5,772 nt of DNA from Deltaproteobacteria bacterium (GTDB taxonomy: Bacteria > Desulfobacterota > Desulfobacteria > Desulfobacterales > JAFDCJ01), in the NCBI GenBank assembly GCA_024277475.1, contig JAJRVC010000341.1, positions 1 to 5,772 on the forward strand. The letters run 5' to 3'. Positions within the stretch are counted from its first letter, which is position 1, and every line of letters starts with the position of its first letter. The notes under the pieces were generated by a model. The model was not told the DNA's origin. It made no database searches and saw only the letters and a program-made list of their open reading frames with translations. Position numbers and translations under genes: made by a program. Below are positions 563 to 5,632 of this stretch, in pieces.

Positions 563-1588
563 TTAATTGAATAGTATTGATTTTCGTAATCCAATAGTGT
601 TGCCAAAACGAACGTGGTTCACCCATCCTTGAACACTTTCTGTGACTTTTTGAGGAGAGATTTTTCCTTCCCTTTGAGCAGAGATCAGTTTTCTCAATTT
701 GCGCTGAAAATGAACGCCCTTTCGTCTTTTTAAGCGTCTACGTTGCGGATAAACGACAAACCCAAGGAAAGGCATACCTTCGTTAACGGGACGTGGATGA
801 GCACCTACATGCAACGTTACTCGATATCTTGATAACCATTGAATTACATGATAAGCCCAGTTCCACAATTGCACTTTTTCATCTGCAAACAATAGGAAAT
901 CATCAACATATCTCAAATATCCCTTGCAGCGCAATTGTCGCTTCACAAAATGATCGAACGGATCCAGGTAGACATTGGCCCAAAATTGACTTGTCAAGTT
1001 CCCAATAGGCAGACCACGAGGACGATTGACAGCGAACAAATCATCACCAGGGAAATAGACCATATCGTATGCTTCACGCAATACCTCTTTACCACTCGCC
1101 ATAATTTGATCAATTAACCACAACACATCTGGATCAGCTATTTGCCGTGCAATAATCTTGCGTAAAATAGCGTGATCGATGCTGGGGAAAAATTGGCGGA
1201 TGTCACATTGCAAAACATACTTGAACTTTCGGGCAAATTGCTGGCAGCGATCCAATGCACGATGCGTGCCTTTGCCGATGCGATTGGCATAGGAATCAAA
1301 AATGAAACGACGTTCAAAAACCGGTTCGATGAGATTGCAGAGGGCATGATGCACGACACGGTCGCGAAAAGGTGCTGCGCTGATCAAACGCTTTTTGGGG
1401 TCATGGGTGTAAAAGCTGTCATAGGACCCAGGGCTGTATGTCTTACTTCGTAGTTCTTCCTGCAACTCGATCAGATTTTCTTCCAACCAATATTCAAAAG
1501 CCGCCACGTTAGGCTTCCCACGCTTGCCCCTGGCCGCTTTTCGAAAAGCCAGCAAGAGATTGTCCCAACTCGTCAATTCATCGTACAT
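563..1588 (-). CDS. DGR reverse transcriptase
   Basis: This RNA-directed DNA polymerase copies the TR transcript into adenine-mutagenised cDNA. From the chosen start it is 341 residues, normal for DGR RTs. Visible motifs are RDRVVHHAL (about 75-83), the motif A block CDIRQFFPSID with its catalytic Asp at 129, the DGR-diagnostic GLPIGNLTSQ (192-201), the catalytic YVDD (227-230), FLGFVV (about 274-279), and the C-terminal GWVNHVRFGNTIGLRKS (about 321-337). There is no maturase or endonuclease domain, which separates it from group II intron RTs. I chose the ATG at 1586-1588 (MYDELTSW) because AGGA sits 6 bases upstream and DGR RTs begin at this point. An in-frame ATG at 1624 would add 12 residues but lacks a Shine-Dalgarno sequence. 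The gene lies downstream of the TR and is probably co-transcribed with it. All catalytic residues are present, so it looks intact. Confidence 0.96.
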   Translation of the reverse strand: MYDELTSWDNLLLAFRKAARGKRGKPNVAAFEYWLEENLIELQEELRSKTYSPGSYDSFYTHDPKKRLISAAPFRDRVVHHALCNLIEPVFERRFIFDSYANRIGKGTHRALDRCQQFARKFKYVLQCDIRQFFPSIDHAILRKIIARQIADPDVLWLIDQIMASGKEVLREAYDMVYFPGDDLFAVNRPRGLPIGNLTSQFWANVYLDPFDHFVKRQLRCKGYLRYVDDFLLFADEKVQLWNWAYHVIQWLSRYRVTLHVGAHPRPVNEGMPFLGFVVYPQRRRLKRRKGVHFQRKLRKLISAQREGKISPQKVTESVQGWVNHVRFGNTIGLRKSILFN

Positions 1589-1594
1589 TGAAAA

Positions 1595-1598
1595 TCCT
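1595..1598 (-). promoter_or_regulatory. RBS that decides the RT start
   Basis: AGGA on the minus strand lies 6 bases before the ATG at 1588. The alternative in-frame ATG at 1624 has no comparable site, which favours the shorter 341-residue RT. Confidence 0.6.
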
Positions 1599-1662
1599 AA
1601 AAAGATGCCCCGCTCCAATCCCATATTTCGGAACAGGGAGCGGGACGGTTGTTATTCGCCCG

Positions 1663-1680
1663 GCACTGCTCGCGCAGCAC
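1663..1680 (-). other. RNA hairpin with GCGA tetraloop in TR-RT spacer
   Basis: On the minus strand GTGCTGC and GCAGTGC form a 7-bp stem (5 Watson-Crick and 2 G-U pairs) closed by GCGA, a stable GNRA-type tetraloop. It lies 89 bases downstream of the TR, in the part of the template RNA expected to bind RT and Avd. The G-U pairs favour folding as RNA of this strand. It has no T tract, so it is not a terminator. Confidence 0.5.
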
Positions 1681-1768
1681 GCGGCCAGGACTTGGCTCTG
1701 CCATTTTTCACCTCGGCCTGGAATTTTACCAGCAAAACGCCAGGCATTTCCGGCAAACAGAAAAATAT

Positions 1769-1885
1769 GCGCAACACCACGCGAAAGCCGTTGTTCCTGT
1801 TCCTGTTATTCGGGTTGTTCCTGTTACGAACTGCGCAACGAACGTTCCTGTGATTATTGTTGAACGAACCGCCGCGCAACACGCG
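1769..1885 (-). repeat. DGR template repeat (TR)
   Basis: This 117-bp repeat matches the VR at 2331-2447 without gaps at a constant 562-bp offset, 104 of 117 positions identical. On the coding strand it has 30 adenines, concentrated in AAC, AAT and AGG codons. In the VR frame it would encode 39 codons running from [14 protein letters not shown] to GFRVVLR, with an Asn/Arg-rich core. That design places mutable adenines at surface codons while leaving the fold-defining codons (RGGSF, CAVR, GFRVVLR) nearly adenine-free. Twelve of the 30 adenines are substituted in the VR. It begins 25 bp after the ancestral avd stop. Short open frames through the TR are a by-product of its coding-like composition. 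Confidence 0.97.
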
Positions 1886-1991: not shown

Positions 1992-2255
1992 TTAAAGCCA
2001 TTGCCAGCGCTGCGCCAATCTCAAATAGAGCCGCACTTTTGCCAGCGATTCATCCGCAACCCTCAGTCGTTCCTTTCTCGCCTGGCCACGACGGATATTC
2101 GCCGCCTCAAGCTGCTCTCGTAGCTCAAAAGCCGCATCCAATAAACGTTTGGTGAACGTGAGCCGATGGGCACGCGGAAAGTTGTTACTCACAGGTAACA
2201 ACCAGCTCAAGAAATCAAATGTGCGCGTAAATATTGGCATGTCTTTAGGGGCCAT
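1992..2255 (-). CDS. avd: Avd-like DGR accessory protein, truncated by in-frame TAA
   Basis: Avd is a small basic four-helix-bundle protein that forms a pentamer, binds the RT and the template RNA, and is needed for mutagenic cDNA synthesis. Landmarks seen here (numbering from the chosen start) are MPIFTRTFDFLSWLLP (6-21), FPRAHRLTF (26-34), a long helix LLDAAFELREQLEAANIRR (38-56) and the basic helix VRLYLRLAQRW (74-84). Translation stops after 87 residues, against roughly 110-125 in the family, so the fourth helix is missing although its codons survive downstream. I chose the ATG at 2253-2255 because GGAG lies 6 bases upstream. The ATG at 2267 would add MEKR but that Shine-Dalgarno sequence lies inside its codons. 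The gene follows the target with no terminator between. Whether the short product can function is uncertain. Confidence 0.88.
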   Translation of the reverse strand: MAPKDMPIFTRTFDFLSWLLPVSNNFPRAHRLTFTKRLLDAAFELREQLEAANIRRGQARKERLRVADESLAKVRLYLRLAQRWQWL

Positions 2256-2261
2256 TCTTTT

Positions 2262-2265
2262 CTCC
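2262..2265 (-). promoter_or_regulatory. RBS that decides the avd start
   Basis: GGAG on the minus strand lies 6 bases before the ATG at 2255. It overlaps the first codons of the longer reading from 2267, so the shorter start is preferred. Confidence 0.6.
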
Positions 2266-2288
2266 ATTTTGATAAATTTTTCGCCGGT

Positions 2289-2324
2289 CCAGAGAACCAG
2301 AGACCAGAGCTTCAGAGTTCAGAG
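2289..2324. repeat. Five near-tandem YCAGAG units downstream of the VR
   Basis: On the plus strand the hexamer YCAGAG occurs five times with 0-2 base spacers, at 2289, 2297, 2304, 2312 and 2319. The last unit contains the stop codon of the target gene. It starts 7 bp past the VR on the coding-strand 3' side, the place where many DGRs carry a short hairpin. I see no strong hairpin here, only this direct-repeat run. Confidence 0.5.
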
Positions 2325-5168
2325 GCGGGGGCGCAACACCACGCGAAACCCGAGGTTCCTGTTCCCGCTACCCGGGGAGTTCCAGTGACGAACCGCGCAA
2401 CGAACGTTCCTGTGACTATTGTTGAACGAACCGCCGCGCAACACGCGCAGGACTTTGTCCGGCGCCCGCAAATTTTCCCGTCCATTCTCAGGGTTATAAG
2501 GGTAACCATATTTTGGTTTTTCCCAACTCTCGCCCCACAGGCTGCGGGTCCACTCCCAAACATTACCGGCCATGTCCTGGCAGCCGTACGGACTCTCCCC
2601 GGCCGGGAAACAGCCCACCGGACTGGTGTCGCCGATGCCGGTATCGTCATAATTAGCTCGGTTGGGATCCGGGTCATCGCCCCAGGGATAAATCCGGCCA
2701 TCCGCACCGCGAGCGGCCTTTTCCCACTCGGCCTCGCTCGGCAGAGTCAGATGCCAACCTTCTTTCTGCAGCAACCGCGCCAACACCGGCGGCAGATCGT
2801 CCCGCTGCGATAATTTCTCCGTCAGCCAGTCGCAATATTTTAGCGCTTCATGCAAGGCAACCCAAGCCACCGGGTGATTGAAAATGCCACGCAAACTTTC
2901 GTGATCCAGTGGTTTGTAATCCGTGTCTTCCACAAAAGCGCGGAATTGCGCCACCGTCACCGGGTAACGGGAGATATAATATGTATCCAACCTGAGTTCA
3001 TGTTGAGGTAATTCACGATCCATAGCTTCGAGGTCTCGCTCTTTGTCGCTTCCCATCTTGAACAGCCCGCCCGGGATTTCGACAAAACCGAGCAGGTCAT
3101 CGTCGGGCAGGAACCACATATCTTCCCGGAAACGCGGGTCGCCCAGGCGGGCCAGGGTGTTGCCGGCGGTGACGCGTTCCGTCACAGGAAAATCACTATA
3201 CCCCATCAAGAAAACCAACCAATCCCTTACCCGATCGAGCATTCTCTCGTTGTTCCTGTTCAATCTGGTTAGATTAGCCGATTCCGCCAAGACTTGTCCG
3301 GCAAGCAGGGCGCCCCAGCATTCCGCCTCGCCCTTTTGGGTTTCGGTTACGTTTTCACCACACAAGCTTTCCGCAAGCGCCCATACGGCGAAATCGGTAC
3401 CGCCAGCACTTTTCCCCGCTCCAAGCAACACAACTTCCCTCCAGCGGTCCGGGTCGGTACGGCCAAGCTCCGCCAGCTTGTCAGGAAAGTTATCATCCGT
3501 GAGGTGGCAGGCGGCCAAATATTCCTGGAACGACCGATGAGGGAAGGTATAGGCCCCACTGCCACGAGGTAGCAGCAATCCCGCCCGGTCGCTCAAATAG
3601 CGTACCAGCAACTTTGGGTTGGCTTCCGGATTCCGTCGCAGGTGCATGAGGCCGCTGACCAGATCACCCTCCGGAACGTCAGCCGTACCCGTCAATCGGG
3701 CCTGCCTCTCATGCGCTTTAAAGGCCAATCTATTCAAAAGATGACGCACATCCTCTTTGTCAACTCGCAGCCACTCCGCCAGACTGGGCTGCTGAACGAT
3801 CACTTCCCCTTTGGCATTGCGCACAACCTTTGGCTTTTCCCACCAATCGAGTAACAGATTCGTTGCATCGGCATAGAGTTCAACCCGCCTCTCCGGCAGG
3901 CTTCCACCCCGCCAGGCATGGAGGCTGGCCATCAATGTAAGCAAAAGCGGCCGTTCGGCCAAAGACAGCAGCCTGTCGCTGGTGAATACGGCTCGTTCCA
4001 ACAGGGTCGCCCGTCCCTTGGCATCTTCCAAGTTCATCCCACGCCTTCCGGCAATGTGGTCGTACCAACCATGGATGAATCGCTTGATTTGCCCCTTTGT
4101 AAAAGGCGCCAGCCTGGTAACGGCAAATCCGGGCAGATGCCATTCCTTTCTTTCATAGGCATAAACACGGCTCGTCACCAATACGCGGCATTTGGCATAA
4201 GTGCCCACAAAGCTCTTTACGACTTGTTTTAATTGCTCACGTTGTTTTTCAGCTTCGGGCACCTCATCAAGGCCATCCAAGAGCACCAATCCGCCTCTCT
4301 CTAACAATTCTTTTCTCAGATGAGGTGCAAAATCTCCGATGCCGGACGCTTTCAACTCGTTTTCGATAAATTTCCATAGACACTCAGCCCCCGGAGGGTC
4401 ACCCGTGTCGGATAGACCACGAGCGGCAAAATCTCGTAGAATGACCCGTACCGGCATCAATGAGCCGTGCACCCACGGTTGGGGATGTTCATTCTCTTCA
4501 TCCTCCTCATCTTTGGGGAGAGGAGCCGTCAATAGGGAGAGGTTTACTTTCGGCTTATCGAGTGCCTCGCCAGCCAGACATAGCGTAACAAAATTGACAA
4601 AAGTACTCTTTCCACTGCCCGGGTCGCCCAGGAGAACCAGGTGCTTGTGTTTGTTGAGCTGCTCAATGGCGGAAAGACGCCGCGTTTTTTCTAATTTGGC
4701 ATCGCGGCGATGCTCATCCACATTCTCGGCCTGTTCCGTTAACATGGCCGTGTAAACGGCATCGAGATCGAGAAGGGCCTCGGATTCGCTACTGGCGGCC
4801 TTTGGGTCAATACCGGCTAAAGAAACGGTACGGCAAGTGTTGAATAGGCTCTCCAGGTAAGAGTTCCGAAGAATACCTGGCTCTGTCTTGGGCAATTTCT
4901 GCGGCGGATTTTCTATGGTCACGTTAACATCCACGGCCGGCTGTGGGGATTCATTATCTGACGTCTTCCGTGGGCTTTTGAGACCATAGAAAAAGGATAT
5001 GATCGAGAAAATGCCCGATAAAATCGTCATCAAATTGGCTGGCCCTTGCAAATCATCTTTGTTCACTTTCAATAATTCAAAGAACTGCGTGGGCCGCCAT
5101 ATCAAAATGGCAAATAAGATCAAAAAAACGATACCGACAGTGATGAGCAAAATTCTTCTCTTATACAT
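2319..5168 (-). CDS. DGR target: membrane NACHT NTPase with variable CLec/FGE domain
   Basis: This 949-residue protein has two predicted membrane helices (6-24 and 44-62). Basic residues at both outer ends suggest a short external loop and a cytoplasmic body. After a linker comes a pre-NACHT region (about 100-145, YLESLF, LAGIDP), then a NACHT NTPase: Walker A GDPGSGKST (181-189), Walker B LVLLDGLDE (294-302), sensor-like VLVTSR (329-334) and HRSFQEYLAA (544-553). A helical, partly HEAT-like stretch (about 560-685) leads to an FGE-sulfatase/CLec domain (about 694-946) with LPSEAEWEKAARG, GNVWEWT, RGGSF and GFRVVLR. The VR is residues 908-946, three codons before the stop. Asn917 appears to occupy the place of the first catalytic Cys of true FGE, so binding rather than catalysis is expected. 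Known NACHT-CLec DGR targets are thought to be immune or conflict sensors; that role is inferred here. The start has GGGGA 6 bases upstream. Confidence 0.95.
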   Translation of the reverse strand: MYKRRILLITVGIVFLILFAILIWRPTQFFELLKVNKDDLQGPANLMTILSGIFSIISFFYGLKSPRKTSDNESPQPAVDVNVTIENPPQKLPKTEPGILRNSYLESLFNTCRTVSLAGIDPKAASSESEALLDLDAVYTAMLTEQAENVDEHRRDAKLEKTRRLSAIEQLNKHKHLVLLGDPGSGKSTFVNFVTLCLAGEALDKPKVNLSLLTAPLPKDEEDEENEHPQPWVHGSLMPVRVILRDFAARGLSDTGDPPGAECLWKFIENELKASGIGDFAPHLRKELLERGGLVLLDGLDEVPEAEKQREQLKQVVKSFVGTYAKCRVLVTSRVYAYERKEWHLPGFAVTRLAPFTKGQIKRFIHGWYDHIAGRRGMNLEDAKGRATLLERAVFTSDRLLSLAERPLLLTLMASLHAWRGGSLPERRVELYADATNLLLDWWEKPKVVRNAKGEVIVQQPSLAEWLRVDKEDVRHLLNRLAFKAHERQARLTGTADVPEGDLVSGLMHLRRNPEANPKLLVRYLSDRAGLLLPRGSGAYTFPHRSFQEYLAACHLTDDNFPDKLAELGRTDPDRWREVVLLGAGKSAGGTDFAVWALAESLCGENVTETQKGEAECWGALLAGQVLAESANLTRLNRNNERMLDRVRDWLVFLMGYSDFPVTERVTAGNTLARLGDPRFREDMWFLPDDDLLGFVEIPGGLFKMGSDKERDLEAMDRELPQHELRLDTYYISRYPVTVAQFRAFVEDTDYKPLDHESLRGIFNHPVAWVALHEALKYCDWLTEKLSQRDDLPPVLARLLQKEGWHLTLPSEAEWEKAARGADGRIYPWGDDPDPNRANYDDTGIGDTSPVGCFPAGESPYGCQDMAGNVWEWTRSLWGESWEKPKYGYPYNPENGRENLRAPDKVLRVLRGGSFNNSHRNVRCAVRHWNSPGSGNRNLGFRVVLRPRL
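2331..2352 (-). other. Probable initiation-of-mutagenic-homing (IMH) end of VR
   Basis: The coding-strand 3' end of the VR is GC-rich and contains no adenine in the last 18 bp (TTTCGCGTGGTGTTGCGC), identical to the TR. The only non-adenine VR/TR mismatch (2349, G in VR and C in TR on the coding strand) sits just inside it. In known DGRs the IMH occupies this place and differs slightly between VR and TR, which fixes the direction of transfer. Position and composition support the call; function is inferred. Confidence 0.6.
2331..2447 (-). repeat. DGR variable repeat (VR), codons 908-946 of the target
   Basis: This is the recipient copy of the TR, in phase with the target reading frame (39 whole codons). 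Differences from the TR fall at 2353, 2354, 2366, 2368, 2371, 2372, 2377, 2378, 2384, 2387, 2394 and 2416, all template adenines on the coding strand, plus a silent C-to-G at 2349. Amino-acid changes relative to the template are N918S, N928H, R929W, N931S, N933G, N934S, R935G and N939L; Ala925 is changed silently. The replaced adenines became G, C or T, as expected of an error-prone RT at adenines rather than deamination. Confidence 0.97.
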
Positions 5169-5416: not shown

Positions 5417-5480
5417 TTGTCTCTTCGACGCGTGTCCCAGGAATTGCACTTTTTGCCTCTACCGGGGGTAGAAGCGCTCA

Positions 5481-5593
5481 ATTTTGGAGTGCATTGACTG
5501 TGTCAATGCCTGCGAGCAAAGCTCGCAAGTGCTGGCGCACAGGGTTTGACGGCTTCGCCGCCAGGCATCCATACAGTGGATGCACTCCAAAAT
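5481..5593. repeat. 113-bp palindromic repeat element with inner hairpins
   Basis: ATTTTGGAGTGCAT at the left end is the exact complement of ATGCACTCCAAAAT at the right end (one further base pair on each side also matches). Inside lie five small hairpins in a row: 5491-5509 (8-bp stem), 5511-5527 (7-bp stem, AAA loop), 5529-5540 (4 bp), 5550-5560 (4 bp, TTC loop) and 5565-5583 (7-bp stem). The trinucleotide TCA stands on both sides (5478-5480 and 5594-5596), a possible short target duplication. There is no coding capacity. The structure fits a MITE-like or REP-like dispersed palindrome; copies elsewhere cannot be seen from this window. Confidence 0.65.
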
Positions 5594-5632
5594 TCAACCA
5601 ATGAGAAAAATCGCATAAAACTTTTGGCATTA

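Follow-up and report, generated by a model that had tools for sequence, protein, structure and literature searches.

A minus-strand diversity-generating retroelement whose target joins a predicted membrane hairpin, a NACHT motor and an FGE-type C-type lectin

Results

The window analysed here, the whole 5,772-nt stretch of contig JAJRVC010000341.1 (assembly GCA_024277475.1, a Deltaproteobacteria bacterium of the Desulfobacterales), carries a complete diversity-generating retroelement (DGR) on its minus strand, in the order target, accessory protein Avd, template repeat (TR) and reverse transcriptase (RT); the contig apparently ends with the window (longest contig 5772). The target holds the variable repeat (VR) within a C-type lectin (CLec) of the formylglycine-generating enzyme (FGE) type, and the RT, Avd and target frames are all open. 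The features are as follows:

2319..5168, minus: DGR target, two-transmembrane (two-TM) hairpin, NACHT domain, helical region and FGE-type CLec; 949 amino acids, reading frame open throughout
4965..5168, minus: N-terminal membrane module (predicted), residues 1-68, with helices at about 5-24 and 43-62, divergent family member
4065..4640, minus: NACHT NTPase domain, residues 177-368
4602..4628, minus: Walker A GDPGSGKST, residues 181-189
4263..4289, minus: Walker B LVLLDGLDE, residues 294-302
2337..3086, minus: FGE-sulfatase type CLec sensor, residues 695-944
2331..2447, minus: VR, codons 908-946, 18 of them with a TR adenine
1992..2267, minus: Avd accessory protein, 91 amino acids (bAvd PF22296)
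1769..1885, minus: TR
1625..1768, minus: TR-RT spacer, 144 nt, with a predicted RNA structure common to relatives
563..1624, minus: DGR reverse transcriptase, 353 amino acids, with IGNLTSQ at 207 and YVDD at 239

TR and VR, each 117 bp, align without gaps and differ at 13 positions, 12 of which are adenines in the TR; with 30 adenines among the 117 TR bases, the hypergeometric probability that at least 12 of 13 mismatches fall at A by chance is 1.2e-7. Read from TR to VR, the changes comprise six A-to-G, three A-to-C, three A-to-T and one C-to-G. The lone C-to-G is close to the repeat's 3' end, beyond all of the mutated adenines, on the side where an initiation-of-homing boundary would be expected. 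The original prediction had equated the VR with the last 39 variable codons of the CLec/FGE domain; the VR coordinates were right, but 18 of the 39 codons hold a template adenine, and three further codons follow the VR before the target ends. Ten VR codons differ from the TR and eight change the amino acid. Template adenines fall 16 times at codon position 1, 13 times at position 2 and once at position 3 (29 of 30 at 1 or 2), changed adenines cannot create a stop codon in the VR, and if each template adenine may become any base, the VR could encode about 10^16.6 protein variants. Family entropy averages 3.21 bits at the 17 positions with an amino-acid-changing template adenine, as against 1.42 bits at the 235 other FGE-domain positions, so it is at just these sites that the family is variable. 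The TR/VR signature thus supports the earlier claim that the target's CLec/FGE tip is diversified by the DGR. Short CTCTG-type repeats lie around and downstream of the target stop codon, adjoining the VR (window 2290-2325).

The RT matches RVT_1 (1.5e-17) and carries YVDD as well as IGNLTSQ, an instance of the xGxxxSQ motif that we take to mark DGR reverse transcriptases; its best NCBIfam model, a group II intron RT, scores 127.9 bits, far under the cut-off of 300. Avd passes the Pfam bAvd model marginally (40.6 bits, cut-off 40) and falls under the cut-off of the NCBIfam Avd model (53.5 bits against 80). An Avd-like frame was detected by tblastn in 25 of the 79 related loci that we took from the genome collection, with 60-73% identity in 14 of these. 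The TR-RT spacers of eight loci (window, L003, L006, L012, L014, L017, L018 and L021) share a predicted four-helix structure; the set comprises loci in which our script placed the RT start at most 400 bases from the TR, with L037 dropped for its 11-nt spacer. In this structure 90.3% of cells pair, compared with 80.0% in shuffles (none of 500 reaching the observed level), 13 pairs are changed on both sides in compensatory fashion, compared with 7.9 in shuffles (7 of 500), and sliding the pairing partners destroys the signal. These figures are supportive of the predicted structure, not independently, since it was predicted from the same alignment. The window had no Rfam match at gathering scores.

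The target's NACHT domain (PF05729, residues 177-368) scores 32.9 bits against a cut-off of 26.7 and its FGE-sulfatase domain (PF03781, residues 695-944) 174.3 bits against 23.3. In the protein search, the 7994 candidates sharing most words were scored, 2603 of which reached E ≤ 0.001, and 120 were listed, including the query; the alignment has 119 rows of these listed proteins, P0021 being omitted for length. Among the columns invariant in this alignment are G181, G184, G186, K187, T189, D298, G299, D301, E302, R334, P407 and H544. The motor is therefore intact in its motif residues, as originally predicted, and both Walker motifs had been placed correctly. The features of a NACHT STAND protein are present (Walker A, a NACHT-type Walker B of the form DGxDE, a sensor arginine and a NACHT fold); in the predicted fold, the motor half matches NOD2, NLRP3 and NLRC4 and the sensor half matches the DGR protein TvpA. 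The VR sits inside a C-terminal CLec fused to NACHT, as in DGR-diversified NACHT-CLec conflict sensors, and no leucine-rich repeat (LRR) was found in the target. We rejected an active FGE: the target has no catalytic cysteine pair, which we take to be C336 and C341 in the human enzyme, and when it is aligned to the Thermomonospora curvata FGE (5nxl), the cysteines of the LCHESYC segment are unmatched by target cysteines, one facing R920 and the other a gap.

Relatives occur in Chloroflexota, Accumulibacter and others. Besides the window, 22 of the 79 loci contain an adenine-biased TR/VR pair, of which that of L075, a 46-base inverted match, is probably false. Because the 24 TR/VR pairs had been picked by the criterion that 80% or more of their mismatches fall at A, the 352 of 382 to which they add up do not test the bias independently; other repeat pairs in these loci show no adenine bias, many being copies of the FGE 3' end. 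Among 67 loci, the window included, that have a closed N-terminus and a P-loop at residue 90 or later, an RT match accompanies a pair in 17, while 4 have only the pair, 6 only the RT and 40 have neither; these counts are lower bounds because many contigs are short and the window's RT was the sole query. A phage origin was rejected, as all 21 loci on viral contigs match the target only partly, at 22-27% identity; the furthest match reaches residue 602, and none gets to the FGE domain.

The two membrane helices of the original prediction were borne out: hydrophobic segments begin at residues 6 and 45, and the structure model places helices at 2-24 and 43-62 (block pLDDT 68-84). When homologues with the same N-terminus were sought, a 70-residue profile was made of this module, itself about 68 residues long. 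Among the 120 listed proteins, 18 score at least 42 bits, the window's target being one of them; these comprise the 16 from which the profile was made plus P0043 and P0061, which score 73.7 and 42.1 without having contributed to it. The 16 aligned relatives all have W at column 25 and F at column 32, with an NS..IQGL..L.QI-like pattern in the inter-helix loop. Against a profile built without it, the window scores 23.1 bits and exceeds 1000 of 1000 shuffles (best of 500 full shuffles, 7.6 bits). Because this window-free profile still detects it above all shuffles, we regard the window's hairpin as probably a genuine but divergent member of the module family, much of whose match is a hydrophobicity pattern. 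Its nearest relative on the NACHT tree, P0043 (77% identical there), retains the residues conserved in the family. Over 17 rows, the flanks contain 33 and 52 K/R against 0 and 1 D/E, while the loop contains 12 K/R against 21 D/E; by the positive-inside rule, the positive flanks predict an N-in/C-in topology with both ends, and with them the NACHT domain and the FGE/CLec tip, in the cytoplasm. P0077 and P0080 have two hydrophobic N-terminal segments that do not match the profile, from which they were excluded. A word search of the protein database with target residues 1-75 or P0031 residues 1-80 returned the query alone, which reflects a limit of word searches and is no proof of uniqueness; the profile search of genomes did recover module relatives.

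In the genome search at E < 1e-13, the module was found in at least 6 of 396 genomes of the class of L002 (at least 8 of 396 at E ≤ 0.001). In the phylum of L073, 1 of 40 genomes has it, in the phylum of L012, 4 of 82, and in the order of L065, at least 4 of 195; the phylum of L007 gives weak matches in 2 of 198. At L112:3334-11410, one TR serves two NACHT-FGE targets flanking Avd-TR-RT: the target without the module has 24 of 24 mismatches at A, and the module-NACHT-FGE target, which is broken into two frames, 21 of 22. L115 likewise has a module-NACHT-FGE target (21 of 23 mismatches at A). At L113, L114 and L117, a module-NACHT gene comes right after an RT 67-68% identical to the window's, and no TR was seen within these short contigs. 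A two-helix N-terminus unmatched by the module profile is present at L051:7572-10595 and L061:5631-8570, on NACHT-FGE targets with an RT and an adenine-biased TR/VR pair. The module sits on several NACHT lineages and beside other DGRs. On a NACHT tree of 66 rows, it is clustered (0 of 500 shuffles as low) and requires 10 changes, at least 4 of them forced by starred branches; removal of the very long rows L113 and L114 left the 10 changes of the rebuilt tree unaltered and lowered the forcing branches from 6 to 4, and a tree of 62 near rows requires 8 changes, 5 of them forced. The rows without the module were every third eligible listed protein plus hand-picked loci, and gain is indistinguishable from loss in these counts.

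Several observations lie beside these. The module NACHT-FGE genes of L132, L133 and L134 (phylum of L012) each fall into two or more open frames, through decay or assembly error. At L135:914-2797 and L136:7187-9355, the NACHT protein that carries the module has several additional hydrophobic segments at its C-terminus and no FGE match, and a TPR-repeat protein at L118:5021-8218 gives a marginal hairpin-profile match that may be mere hydrophobic similarity. In the window, an inverted repeat lies upstream of the target (5480-5594; 43-nt arms, 79% complementary), with no counterpart in the relatives' loci compared, and an open frame at 2-364 on the minus strand has a lipoprotein-like start (LLLTLISSC) and no Pfam family match.

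Discussion

What is observed here is the layout of the locus, a VR with adenine-directed changes, a motor with its key residues intact and a hairpin that recurs with a consistent charge pattern. From this we propose, with confidence approaching but not reaching an even chance, that the target is a single-polypeptide, DGR-diversified NLR-like receptor in the inner membrane, whose tip would sense an invader, whose NACHT domain would oligomerise and whose hairpins would damage the membrane. The N-terminal hairpin would insert N-in/C-in, so that the NACHT motor and the FGE/CLec tip face the cytoplasm. Adenine-error copying and overwriting of the VR are established for DGRs in other systems; here, Avd and RT would make an error-prone copy of the TR, mutated at adenines, and this cDNA would overwrite the VR, giving lineages with different binding tips. 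Binding of an invader-derived ligand to the tip would lead the ATP-loaded NACHT module to oligomerise, and the hairpins, once clustered, would depolarise the membrane or make it permeable, so that the cell is halted or dies. What we infer for the target is that it senses a ligand, oligomerises, damages the membrane and serves in defence. The original prediction of a candidate immune receptor, diversified somatically or by lineage, is supported in part. The more general version, in which an exchangeable hairpin module of NACHT proteins in several phyla forms a membrane-breaking assembly when a DGR-varied tip binds, so that receptor and executioner share one chain, we consider rather doubtful; the likeness of such a chain to a resistosome with a lineage-diversified sensor is an analogy that we hold just as loosely. 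The idea that the hairpin replaces an enzyme effector is a hypothesis, and the window's copy does not have the module's two most conserved residues.

A number of points weigh against the proposed receptor. The window's hairpin has R25 and L32 where the family has W and F, it agrees at only 4 of the 17 columns common to at least 11 relatives (relatives score 8 to 16), and the best of 500 within-segment shuffles scores 22.5 bits, just under its 23.1. The module has no fixed link to DGRs: there is no RT on the 7985-base contig of L116 or within 13-14 kb at L132 and L134, and L002 has two RT fragments only and no TR. Several module relatives are frame-broken (L112, L132, L133 and L134), no close population copies were found to display current VR turnover, and PADLOC gives no family for the target at E ≤ 0.001. 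The DGR-NACHT systems known from PMC10907252 (the papers cited here are drawn on in part) are proposed to rely on partner proteases or N-terminal enzymes, and the contig stops 604 bases upstream of the target, so that a partner gene could be missing from view. The two-helix hairpin may, finally, be a mere anchor.

In that last case, the hairpin would do no more than keep the diversified receptor, itself cytoplasmic, at the inner membrane, through which phage DNA or proteins come in, and a second protein, recruited by the oligomer, would kill; we treat this as a serious possibility, though one that we would not bet on. Published DGR-NACHT loci do pair with trypsin-like or other effectors (PMC10907252), the window's hairpin keeps its hydrophobicity and charges without the family's conserved residues, and the second, profile-unmatched two-TM N-terminus on the full DGR targets of L051 and L061 suggests that membrane attachment itself may be selected. 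However, the 16 aligned relatives are conserved beyond hydrophobicity (W25 and F32), and the window contains no recognisable partner gene, though it is short. It is improbable that the diversified receptor serves, instead of defence against phage, to recognise kin, to tell self from non-self or to signal: PMC10907252 proposes this alternative for DGR conflict systems and lists filamentous Chloroflexi and Accumulibacter microcolonies as DGR bearers, in keeping with the relatives found here in Chloroflexota and Accumulibacter, among others, but a sensor predicted to be cytoplasmic fits an intracellular ligand better than a neighbour's surface.

Two further readings have very little probability. 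A membrane protein displaying its FGE tip outside the cytoplasm would agree with what PMC8144416 suggests for most cellular DGR target clusters, namely that, with TM segments or signal peptides at their N-termini, they bind substrates outside the cell; in this target, however, two helices with strongly positive ends bring the chain back to the cytoplasm, and the NACHT motor needs ATP. It is just as hard to believe that the cassette is old or inactive, its TR/VR similarity a relic of a diversification that has ceased. A single copy is in view, which would allow it, but all 12 TR-adenine differences lie 5' of the sole other difference near the repeat's 3' end, so the remaining repeat is free of ordinary substitutions, and the open frames of RT, Avd and target also argue against decay.

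With a single compact gene, a membrane hairpin and the whole cassette, the locus would allow two questions to be put in one laboratory strain, whether a retroelement-varied tip detects phage and whether the NACHT motor kills through the membrane. The basic design of the target is known: NACHT-CLec targets of DGRs have been published, as the original prediction had recognised, and for some of them a membrane placement is predicted (PMC10907252). It had also called the two-helix N-terminus the less familiar part, which holds to the extent that no name for the module was found in the literature searched (open papers, supplements excluded), whereas membrane placement as such has precedent (PMC10907252, PMC8144416).

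In the portions drawn on, PMC10907252 treats DGR targets with NACHT or nSTAND plus CLec as putative antigen sensors, states that CLec-STAND proteins diversified by DGRs lacked experimental characterisation in 2024, describes N-terminal extensions without known domains and predicts different placements, cytoplasmic and periplasmic, for two NACHT-CLec DGR targets. The wider conflict-system frame is given in PMC7159879 and PMC8195603; a term search of PMC10053308, on DGRs in immunity, turned up neither NACHT nor STAND. The closest known systems are the DGR STAND/NACHT-CLec conflict sensors of PMC10907252 (RT clade 5D; for example Thiohalocapsa PB-PSB1 DGR 3, the targets of which are predicted to differ in cytoplasmic or periplasmic location, and DGR 6), with which the window shares a central NACHT or nSTAND, a C-terminal FGE-type CLec with the VR, an RT and a TR. 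Those systems often have two targets, whereas the window shows one, with the predicted N-in/C-in two-helix module, and neither a protease nor an EAD partner is in view. The DGR variable proteins TvpA of Treponema denticola and TaqVP of Thermus aquaticus are described in PMC6328139 as having a single domain, and so would be without NACHT or hairpin. The antiphage bNACHT proteins (bNACHT25 etc.; PMC12169576) follow the same tripartite effector-NACHT-sensor plan, but bNACHT25 has a PD-(D/E)XK DNase effector and a helical C-terminal domain, with no CLec or DGR mentioned in the part of that paper used here. Animal NLRs (NOD2, NLRP3 and NLRC4) share the fold of the NACHT half with the target, in which no LRR was found and whose sensor, in contrast to theirs, is FGE-type and appears to be diversified by reverse transcription.

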